A model generated the notes under the pieces. That model was not told the DNA's origin, searched no databases, and saw only the letters and a list, made by a program, of their open reading frames with translations. Below, piece by piece: positions 26,090 to 46,500 of a stretch of 64,000 nt of DNA. Origin of the DNA: Bradyrhizobium sp. CCBAU 53421 (GTDB taxonomy: Bacteria; Pseudomonadota; Alphaproteobacteria; Rhizobiales; Xanthobacteraceae); contig NZ_CP030047.1 in the NCBI RefSeq assembly GCF_015291625.1, forward strand, positions 1,054,001 to 1,118,000, in the 5' to 3' direction. Position 1 is the stretch's first letter. Each line of letters begins with the position of its first letter. The position numbers and the translations under genes were made by a program.

Positions 26090-26644
26090 ATGCTCCCCGC
26101 GCTCCGCATGGTTTCCGAAGCTGCCGAGCTTGCCGCGCGTCGCCACAACGGGATGGCGCGCAAGGGGCGGGGAAACGAGCCGTACATCAACCATCTCGCC
26201 GAGGTTGCCAACCTGCTTGCGCAGGTCACCGATGGCACCGATGCCGAACTGGTGGCGGCCGGCTGGCTGCACGACACGATCGAGGACACCGAGACGACGC
26301 GCGAGGAGCTCGCCGGGAAATTCAGCGAACGCGTTGCCTCCCTGGTGGTCGAATGCACTGACGACATGAGCCTGCCGAAGGCCGTGCGCCGGCAGAAGCA
26401 GATCGAGGACGCTCCGCACAAATCGCCCGATGCAAAACTGATCAAGACCGCCGACAAGGTCAGCAATATCGGCGCGCGGATTGTGCCGCATCCAGACAAG
26501 GACGAGCGCGACGACCTCGCCGACTATGCCGCCTGGGCCGACAAGGTCGTTGCCGGGTGCCGGGGCATCAATCCGCGGCTCGACCGCATTTTCGACGACA
26601 CCATTGCGCGCGCCAGGGCCGCGCTGGCTGAAACTGGGGGCTGA
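26090..26644 (+). CDS. MESH1-like HD-domain protein, predicted (p)ppGpp hydrolase
   Basis: A 184-residue single-domain HD protein. The hydrolase motifs of the RelA/SpoT family appear in order: [10 protein letters not shown] with PYINH (first His, at about residue 40), [10 protein letters not shown] (the HD pair, about residue 61), then [10 protein letters not shown] and [13 protein letters not shown] (last metal Asp). The closest match I recall is the metazoan/bacterial MESH1 small alarmone hydrolase (LHDTVEDT, EEVTDDKTLPK, KLVKLADKLYNL). No synthetase, TGS or ACT domain is present. It fills the space between ureB and ureC with a one-base gap before ureC, so it is co-transcribed with urease. 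Loss of alarmone during urea use is an inference. Confidence 0.85.
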
Positions 26645-26645
26645 C

Positions 26646-28361
<1,716 letters not shown>

Positions 28362-45441: not shown

Positions 45442-45601
45442 GCCCCACACGTTCGAGCAGCGCCTTGAGGAGCATCGCGTGCGGCTCGAGAGCCAGCTCG
45501 CGGAATTGCCGCGCGGCGCCAAGCGCGAACAGATCGTCGCTCGGATCGAGCAGTTGCGCACCGCCGTCGAGCTGAACGCGATGCTGTCGATGCACGAGTG
45601 A
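45407..45601 (+). CDS. Small basic helical protein (64 residues)
   Basis: A 64-residue protein made almost wholly of a predicted helix: RIIRKRKRSEPHTFEQRLEE, then LESQLAELPRGAKREQIVAR and IEQLRTAVELN. The N terminus is basic. An AAGGA site precedes the ATG at 45407. It overlaps the previous gene by 35 bases and probably shares its transcript. No function is known; related short proteins are common in rhizobia. Confidence 0.65.
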   Translation: MERIIRKRKRSEPHTFEQRLEEHRVRLESQLAELPRGAKREQIVARIEQLRTAVELNAMLSMHE

Positions 45602-45666
45602 ACCGACACCGGCGCGGGACGCCCACTTGCTCCCGTCGCTGCGCTCGCCTACCATCCCTCCGTTGA

Positions 45667-45737
45667 TGGGGATGGAGTCCCCCGATAACCGCCGCAAGGC
45701 TGATGACTCCTACCGGGCGCGACAGCGTCGGTAGGAG
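45667..45737 (+). promoter_or_regulatory. Fluoride riboswitch (crcB motif)
   Basis: The core reads GGGGATGGAGTCCCCCGATA, then ACCGCCGCAAGGC and TGATGACTCCTACCG. This matches the fluoride aptamer layout: a GGGG/CCCC stem, a GCC..GGC hairpin, the TGATG bulge, and the GGAGTC (45674-45679) to GACTCC (45705-45710) pairing. The 3' part CTCCTACCG (45707-45715) can instead pair perfectly with CGGTAGGAG (45729-45737), giving an alternative hairpin as the expression platform. It stands before a small membrane protein gene and crcB. Confidence 0.9.
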
Positions 45738-45789
45738 CATGCGCCACCGCCGACCCGCAGTGCGCCCCGCGAACGAGAAGGGGCAGAGC

Positions 45790-45963
45790 ATGACGGGTCT
45801 TCCTGATTCACTCTCAATCGCATTGTCGCTGGTCGGGTCGATCTGGCTCGTCGGTGTCGTCGCTCTGCTGGTCGACGCCCCGGGCGAGCTGGTCGCCGCG
45901 ACTTTTGTCGTTGGGACGCTGGTCGGCATCGCCGAGTGGCGGGCAGGAAGGGTGAGAAGTTGA
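45790..45963 (+). CDS. Small membrane protein (57 residues) under the fluoride riboswitch
   Basis: A 57-residue protein with two hydrophobic segments: SIALSLVGSIWLVGVVALLV and ELVAATFVVGTLVGIAEW, joined by VDAPG, with a basic C-terminal end. The ATG at 45790 has a GAAGGGG site; an upstream in-frame ATG at 45739 is too close to the riboswitch hairpin. The stop overlaps the TTG start of crcB by three bases, so the two are translationally coupled. No family is recognised. Position suggests a role in fluoride resistance. Confidence 0.75.
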   Translation: MTGLPDSLSIALSLVGSIWLVGVVALLVDAPGELVAATFVVGTLVGIAEWRAGRVRS

Positions 45964-46346
45964 ACGTTCAATTGTTGGCGGCGGTCGCGATCGGCGGTTC
46001 GCTGGGATCGGTCGCGCGCTATCTGGTGGCGATCGGCGCGGGGCGCCTGGTCGGCGCCGAATTTCCCTGGGGCACGCTGGTGATCAATATCGTGGGCTCG
46101 TTCCTGATCGGCGTGTTTGCGGAGTCCTTCGCGCTGACCTGGAATGTCAGCCAGGCAATGCGGGTGTTTCTCACCGTCGGCATTTGCGGCGGCTTCACCA
46201 CCTTCTCGACCTTTTCGCTCGACGCGATCGTGCTGATGCAGCGCGGCGAGCTATGGCCGGCTGCCGCCTACATCGCGGCCTCCGTCGTGCTCTCGATCCT
46301 GGCGCTGTTCGGCGGCCTGCTGCTGGTGCGCGCGTTCGCGAGCTAA
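45960..46346 (+). CDS. crcB: CrcB/FluC fluoride channel
   Basis: A 128-residue fluoride-selective channel subunit from a TTG start at 45960, coupled to the previous stop. It has four membrane helices, and the family signatures are GGSLGSVARYLVA near the start, EFPWGTLVINIVGSFLIG and GGFTTFSTFSLD. The dimer expels fluoride down its electrochemical gradient. The fluoride riboswitch upstream is consistent with this function. Confidence 0.95.
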   Translation: MNVQLLAAVAIGGSLGSVARYLVAIGAGRLVGAEFPWGTLVINIVGSFLIGVFAESFALTWNVSQAMRVFLTVGICGGFTTFSTFSLDAIVLMQRGELWPAAAYIAASVVLSILALFGGLLLVRAFAS

Positions 46347-46370
46347 TGGTCAGCTACGCGTTCCCCCTTC

Positions 46371-46500
46371 CGTCATCCTGAGGAGCGCGGAACGCGCGTC
46401 TCGAAGGATGCACGGCCCGGCCGGTGGCCGTCGACCCTTCGAGGCTCGCTTTGCTCGCACCTCCAGCGACAAAGGCGAAGCGTTTGCGCGGGGGTGACGG
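46371..46500. repeat. Dispersed inverted repeat with CGTCATCCTGAGGAG ends, copy 2
   Basis: Starts CGTCATCCTGAGGAGCGCGG and ends GGGGGTGACGG; it shares the left 40 bases and the CCCTTCGAG-C-TCG core with copy 1 at 31235-31335 but has extra bases near its right end (around 46460-46490). It begins 24 bases after the crcB stop. Confidence 0.75.

Follow-up and report, generated by a model that had tools for sequence, protein, structure and literature searches.

The fluoride channel FluC (CrcB) is generally regarded as sufficient alone. AcrZ, KdpF and MgtS are examples of small accessory membrane proteins of transporters.

As described in PMC13273304, a fluoride riboswitch without fluoride rearranges into an intrinsic terminator, and the fluoride riboswitches of Pseudomonas syringae and Burkholderia pseudomallei are used there as translational controls. 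In Enterobacter cloacae FRM, a multi-gene fluoride operon is under a fluoride riboswitch (PMC5533749).

We analyzed a stretch of 64,000 nucleotides from Bradyrhizobium sp. CCBAU 53421 (contig NZ_CP030047.1, positions 1,054,001 to 1,118,000; here called the window). Its fluoride locus is like known crcB (RF01734) riboswitches in having an aptamer, a pseudoknot, a competing hairpin on the 3' strand of the aptamer, and FluC as target. It differs from them in that the hairpin has no U-tract and lies 52 nt from the first start, and in an extra gene before fluC with a second conserved hairpin at the start of that gene. Competition by a hairpin for the aptamer 3' strand is the established mode of action of such riboswitches, and a rearrangement of this kind is described in PMC13273304. 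The translational switches of P. syringae and B. pseudomallei also have no intrinsic terminator. However, the first hairpin of the window (H1) is not on the ribosome site of the first gene, whereas in four related leaders (L006, L010, L018 and L074; see below) the hairpin is on that of fluC. The E. cloacae FRM operon also places further genes besides crcB under the riboswitch. Its extra genes are ppaC, uspA, eno, gpmA and orf5249 (PMC5533749).

The riboswitch and FluC are ordinary, and the small protein encoded between them is the new part. Our preferred reading, to which we assign a probability of roughly 0.5, is that the riboswitch operon makes FluC and, in step with it, a fluoride-induced accessory membrane protein.

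The riboswitch leader and two overlapping genes

We found a fluoride riboswitch aptamer (crcB motif) at positions 45659-45719 of the window, on the forward strand like the other parts of the leader and both genes. When the whole window was scanned with cmscan at gathering thresholds, RF01734 matched here with 58.2 bits (cut-off 34, E 1.5e-13). The match covered model positions 1-64 of 64 and contained no pair marked as non-standard. This bears out the aptamer named in an earlier reading of the same DNA (the original prediction). Judged from its sequence, the leader would be expected to respond to fluoride. The pseudoknot of the aptamer, in which the first loop pairs with the 3' strand (GGAGU/ACUCC), had 99.4% of alignment cells paired across 32 leaders, with one pair changed on both sides; a single row breaks a pair.

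The window's aptamer was the only one above the cut-off in the genome (9.26 Mb, single contig). A candidate for a second riboswitch (L002) was rejected at 24.6 bits, below the cut-off, with no clear aptamer or small gene there. Such aptamers are common in the genus, with matches at E <= 0.001 in 145 of 195 genomes and above the cut-off in 143. A possible promoter, TTGCTC and TACCAT separated by 17 nt (45627-45655), was seen by eye and ends just before the aptamer. Similar boxes are present upstream in L041 (spacing 17 nt) and L053 (16 nt). A consensus scan of 45500-46500 flagged no promoter-like site, this one included.

The 3' strand of the aptamer is also taken by hairpin H1 (45707-45737), in which CTCCTACCG (45707-45715) pairs with CGGTAGGAG (45729-45737). 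The nine-base pairing is perfect and sits exactly where it had been predicted, with a loop of 13 nt, and H1 is included in the MFE fold of the leader. On the 32 leaders of small genes, 97.9% of cells were paired, and two pairs had changes on both sides. When the partner was moved by 1-3 columns as a slide control, 34-58% of cells were paired. In one leader (L052) the aptamer loop (GAAG), the common strand (CTTC) and the H1 partner (GAAG) are all altered jointly, which is evidence for one strand pairing both ways. Because variation is low and the slide controls favor structure that is visible in the consensus, we treat the pairing of H1 and of the pseudoknot as support and not as proof.

H1 ends 52 bases before the ATG of the small gene at 45790. 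No T-tract follows it, either in the sequence or by a consensus terminator scan, so H1 lacks the U-tract of an intrinsic terminator. Both properties had been stated correctly beforehand. The only terminator-like site that the scan flagged within 45500-46500 is internal to the small gene (45891-45903), compared with 0.6 expected by shuffling.

The small gene (45790-45963) encodes a 57-residue two-helix membrane protein, as indicated by the open reading frame, homologues, selection and a structural model. Two in-frame ATG starts, at 45703 and 45739, would give a longer protein and were rejected, the frame not being kept among relatives. We use 57 residues as the supported length because leader length varies in relatives without conservation of the frame. 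The next gene, fluC (crcB; 45960-46346, TTG start), encodes a protein that matched PF02537 (102.1 bits, cut-off 32.9), NF010791 (171 bits, cut-off 129) and solved FluC structures (E 1.7e-14). From its family, we assume that it exports fluoride as a dual-topology dimer.

The two genes share TTGA, the stop of the small gene running into the TTG at 45960. This is the predicted 4-base overlap, and it was found in 26 of 39 loci examined (24 found by motif, with L108 and L131 added by sequence), with TTG, ATG or GTG as the fluC start. An overlap so exact and so often repeated points to a partner produced in step with FluC, and we infer that fluC is translationally coupled to the small gene. In L043, L046, L047 and L048 a palindromic repeat (ATGATCCGGAAAAGTGG...CCGGTTTTCC) is inserted at the 3' end of the small gene, before fluC. 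In the three of these loci where fluC could be placed (all except L043), the small frame reads through the repeat to the fluC start, with a 4-base overlap in L047 and an end 4 bases before the start in L046 and L048.

The small protein, its conservation and its relatives

At E <= 1 the small protein matched nothing in Pfam or NCBIfam. Its relatives gave weak Pfam matches only (best E 0.0049), and 9 of 29 relatives had a weak match to the NCBIfam FxsA model (best E 3.3e-5). An AlphaFold2 model has helices at residues 6-27 and 32-56 (mean pLDDT 81, pTM 0.44). The original prediction of a two-helix membrane protein of no recognized family thus agrees with both results. The basic C-terminus and acidic loop suggest, by the positive-inside rule, that both ends are inside. 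Comparison of the model with PDB folds gave one match, at E 9.9 and of no use, and a profile search of PDB sequences found no solved relative (best E 0.66). The idea that the protein is a half or relic of FluC was rejected at an hhalign probability of 0.1%, with FluC entered as a single sequence. No description of the protein was found in searches of open-access literature. Like AcrZ, KdpF and MgtS, it is a tiny membrane protein that accompanies a transporter, a likeness in kind; unlike them, it is modelled with two helices.

The small gene is conserved in relatives; a lack of such conservation would have refuted the original prediction. A search with the protein gave 37 matches including itself, 25 of them exactly 57 residues long, and every source name among the 37 that bears an organism is Bradyrhizobium. 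Within the genus, 22 of 195 genomes matched, and RF01734 was directly upstream of the small gene in all 22 loci (L034-L053, L054 and L055, the last a fragment next to masked bases). Across an alignment of 17 sequences, pN was below pS in 136 of 136 pairs. Median dN/dS was 0.32, compared to 0.14 for fluC (16 sequences). The result in all pairs indicates that the amino acid sequence of the small protein is selected, less strictly than that of FluC. Residues P5, S7, W19, G42, E49 and W50 are conserved. Some copies look degenerate (L055, L123, L127, L132 and L133).

Further out, a profile of the small protein matched 32 of 296 genomes of the taxonomic family, in 7 of 47 genera. Among 297 genomes of the order, it found only the window's own protein and one weak case without an aptamer. 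A single peptide pattern run on GTDB species genomes gave 14 loci, 13 in Bradyrhizobium and one in Ancylobacter dichloromethanicus (L200). All 14 have an aptamer directly upstream, although they are not independent of the loci above, at least 10 being, by their length, contigs already among them. The aptamer scores of L200 are the same four as those of L114.

In A. dichloromethanicus the four fluoride riboswitches lie within 3.2 kb. Other genomes of the taxonomic family are also rich in these riboswitches, with 20 matches in G215, 13 in G418, 11 in G041 (L059-L061) and 9 in G411. Such genomes look like they hold fluoride-response islands.

Possible modes of control by the leader

A second hairpin, H2 (45764-45784), is formed by GCCCC (45764-45768) and GGGGC (45780-45784). 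It spans the probable ribosome site of the small gene, AGAAGGGG (45776-45783), which is in its 3' arm. Since MAFFT did not align H2 across clades, we looked for it leader by leader. Of 32 leaders, 28 had a compact H2 hairpin 2-6 nt ahead of the start, and its stem varies between them (for example GCGCCC/GGGCGC, GTTGCC/GGCAAC, GTCCC/GGGAC). That H1 itself masks the ribosome site of the small gene was ruled out by position, given the 52 nt between H1 and the ATG.

The arrangement is simpler in the four leaders that have no small gene (L006, L010, L018 and L074). There fluC directly follows H1, and the H1 arm GGTAGGAG is the fluC ribosome site. Folding in the shortest context predicted this site to be unpaired with a probability of 0.01 without the aptamer and 0.44-0.94 with the aptamer formed. 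The opening was smaller with more coding sequence, and was reversed for L074 in the longest context.

For leaders with a small gene, one tentative possibility, somewhat short of even odds, is a relay between the two hairpins. Fluoride would free the H1 strand GGGCGC, which would pair with the H2 arm GCGCCC, opening H2 and freeing the ribosome site. In the window the hypothetical partner is GGGCGC at 45715-45720, which pairing statistics and folding would match with 45762-45767 when H1 is open. Across the 32 leaders, H1 and H2 segments of the same leader paired at -18.0 kcal/mol compared to -16.3 when swapped, a difference reached in 0 of 1000 permutations. For 18 representatives that we picked ourselves, own pairing was stronger in all but 1 of 5000 permutations. 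However, the longest Watson-Crick run was no longer in own than in swapped pairs (5.9 and 5.7), and H2 taken singly beat shuffles in only 8 of 32 leaders. Of the 32 leaders, folding with the aptamer formed predicted more H1/H2 pairing in 18 and a lost H2 in 17, but in L035, L037 and L131 the H1/H2 pairing was predicted in both states. We measured accessibility first over positions -16 to +3 and later on the ribosome sites themselves. The earlier measure showed no difference between states; it also changed little at the four direct loci, where a response was expected. On the sites themselves, 17 of 31 opened and 0 of 31 closed when coding sequence was omitted, but with 12, 25 and 40 coding bases the site opened in 4, 2 and 7 of 31 and closed in 0, 4 and 0. 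The relay has statistical support, and the folding predictions are equivocal.

We give about equal weight, and the same less than even chance, to transcriptional control, in which H1, having no U-tract, would work by pausing or by Rho loading at 45738-45770. That stretch is C-rich by eye, the distance of H1 from the start fits such a mechanism, and folding gives no robust opening of the small gene's ribosome site. On the other side, the terminator scan flagged nothing at H1, and other fluoride riboswitches of the genus (L027, L070 and L073) carry an obvious terminator with a T-tract. A two-hairpin leader without a terminator would offer a clean case for riboswitch action at a distance from the start codon.

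Proposed role and wider distribution of the small protein

The small protein is probably a real and uncharacterized part of the fluoride response. According to our preferred reading, the riboswitch operon would yield two membrane proteins, FluC and the 57-residue protein with two helices. In the absence of fluoride, H1 would take the 3' strand of the aptamer and expression would be low. With fluoride, the aptamer would hold that strand, H1 could not form, and the operon would be expressed. Ribosomes ending the small gene would restart at the overlapping fluC start, so that both proteins would be made in step. The small protein would most likely assist or stabilize export proteins, FluC here and an antiporter in a relative. 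We would describe it, at about even odds, as an accessory membrane protein that serves export systems. A small membrane protein repeatedly found under the riboswitch, overlapping fluC by exactly four bases and also occurring with another transporter or alone, would extend the fluoride response by one component and is a simple candidate to test.

Some copies of the small gene are not attached to fluC. The copy in L053 shares eight bases with a gene for a CPA2-type antiporter (TIGR00932, E 8e-31, below the curated cut-off of that model). Five other copies (L054, L061, L105, L114 and L116) follow an aptamer, with no fluC found on the same strand of the locus; in L054 the next aptamer directly follows the small gene. 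These two kinds of copy, antiporter-linked and without fluC, suggest that FluC is not the only possible partner.

These copies also bear on the alternative that the small gene is a leader cistron, kept chiefly for translational coupling to fluC and with a product that itself does little in the fluoride response. The exact 4-base overlap in 26 of 39 loci, the near preservation of coupling despite the repeat insertions, and the moderate selection on the protein all fit such a role. Against it stand the copies behind aptamers where no fluC was found, the copy on an antiporter gene, amino acid selection in every pair, and the six conserved residues, and we consider it improbable, the least likely of the readings given here. 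Slightly less improbable, though still doubtful, is a bolder form of the preferred reading, in which Bradyrhizobium and its relatives would have an undescribed family of fluoride-induced two-helix proteins, made alone or in step with FluC or an antiporter, that raise fluoride tolerance through membrane export proteins. The riboswitch of these operons would then work by the two-hairpin relay and not through a terminator or a competing hairpin that masks the ribosome site.

The small-protein family is wider than fluoride. We examined 30 loci of the taxonomic family (L105-L134; one of them, L107, is the window itself, and five further profile-match rows were not made loci). RF01734 was upstream in 19, and 11 had none in the locus. 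In addition, a second type of small two-helix protein (type B) precedes fluC behind terminator-bearing riboswitches in L070, L073, L136, L137 and L139, with an additional frame between the two genes in L073. The terminator of these riboswitches is evident, CCCGCC...GGCGGGTTTTTT. Type A and type B are related by profile comparison (96%, E 4.7e-9). A similar protein precedes an antiporter-like gene in L009 and L134, the likeness to the L053 antiporter being judged by eye. The type-B profile matched 20 of 248 genomes of the taxonomic family, some at type-A loci. No aptamer was found by cmscan at type-B loci L141-L144, L146 and L157, or by pattern only at L145, L147, L148 and L156. Two of these loci are in the window's own genome, away from aptamers: L146 (2846385-2846552) and L157 (5410174-5410353), the latter with an internal stop.

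The distribution could mean that this is a general two-helix membrane family, with fluoride operons as one of several uses and a role, for example in membrane or proton homeostasis, that is not specific to fluoride. The 11 of 30 loci without an aptamer and the profile-related type-B proteins away from aptamers, in this genome and others, point that way. Against this, all genus loci are behind an aptamer, and several of the 11 loci form distinct sequence groups by eye. We consider a general family unlikely, more probable than a mere coupling frame and less so than the preferred reading of an accessory protein made in step with FluC. The original proposal of a new fluoride-response component survives in part: the protein is conserved, selected and behind fluoride riboswitches, sometimes without fluC. 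A role specific to fluoride fares less well, given the loci and type-B proteins away from aptamers and the rarity of the small gene at fluC loci.

That rarity was seen in 29 fluC loci of the taxonomic family, taken by score order (L158-L186). A pattern search of the 420 bases upstream found a riboswitch in 18 of them, and the small gene is present in one, L175. The second fluC of the window's genome (L075) has neither. We built a fluC tree of 45 rows, dropping hits with fewer than 95 aligned residues; 19 of 20 small-gene rows remained. Eight rows were left ungrouped (NORSW), though three of them (L164, L165 and L171) have a riboswitch by pattern. On this tree the small gene must have been gained or lost at least five times. 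On a first tree, of 46 rows, a single loss of the small gene seemed to explain the direct riboswitch-fluC layout. We dropped this claim because 5 changes are required once more loci are included. Together, the fluC loci without the small gene and the changes on the tree indicate that FluC does not need the small protein.

Other layouts were seen in passing. In L064, L066, L067, L068 and L072, a Bradyrhizobium fluoride riboswitch is followed by a transporter-like gene (MFS-like by eye) and then one or two fluC genes. In L003/L071 two fluoride aptamers lie back to back on opposite strands, and frames on one side resemble Nudix hydrolase and enolase by eye. Elsewhere in the window, RF02514 (5' ureB sRNA) matched with 99 bits on the reverse strand at 26796-27086, a position within and antisense to the urease alpha frame (26481-28361). 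This match may merely reflect conserved coding sequence of the opposite strand.
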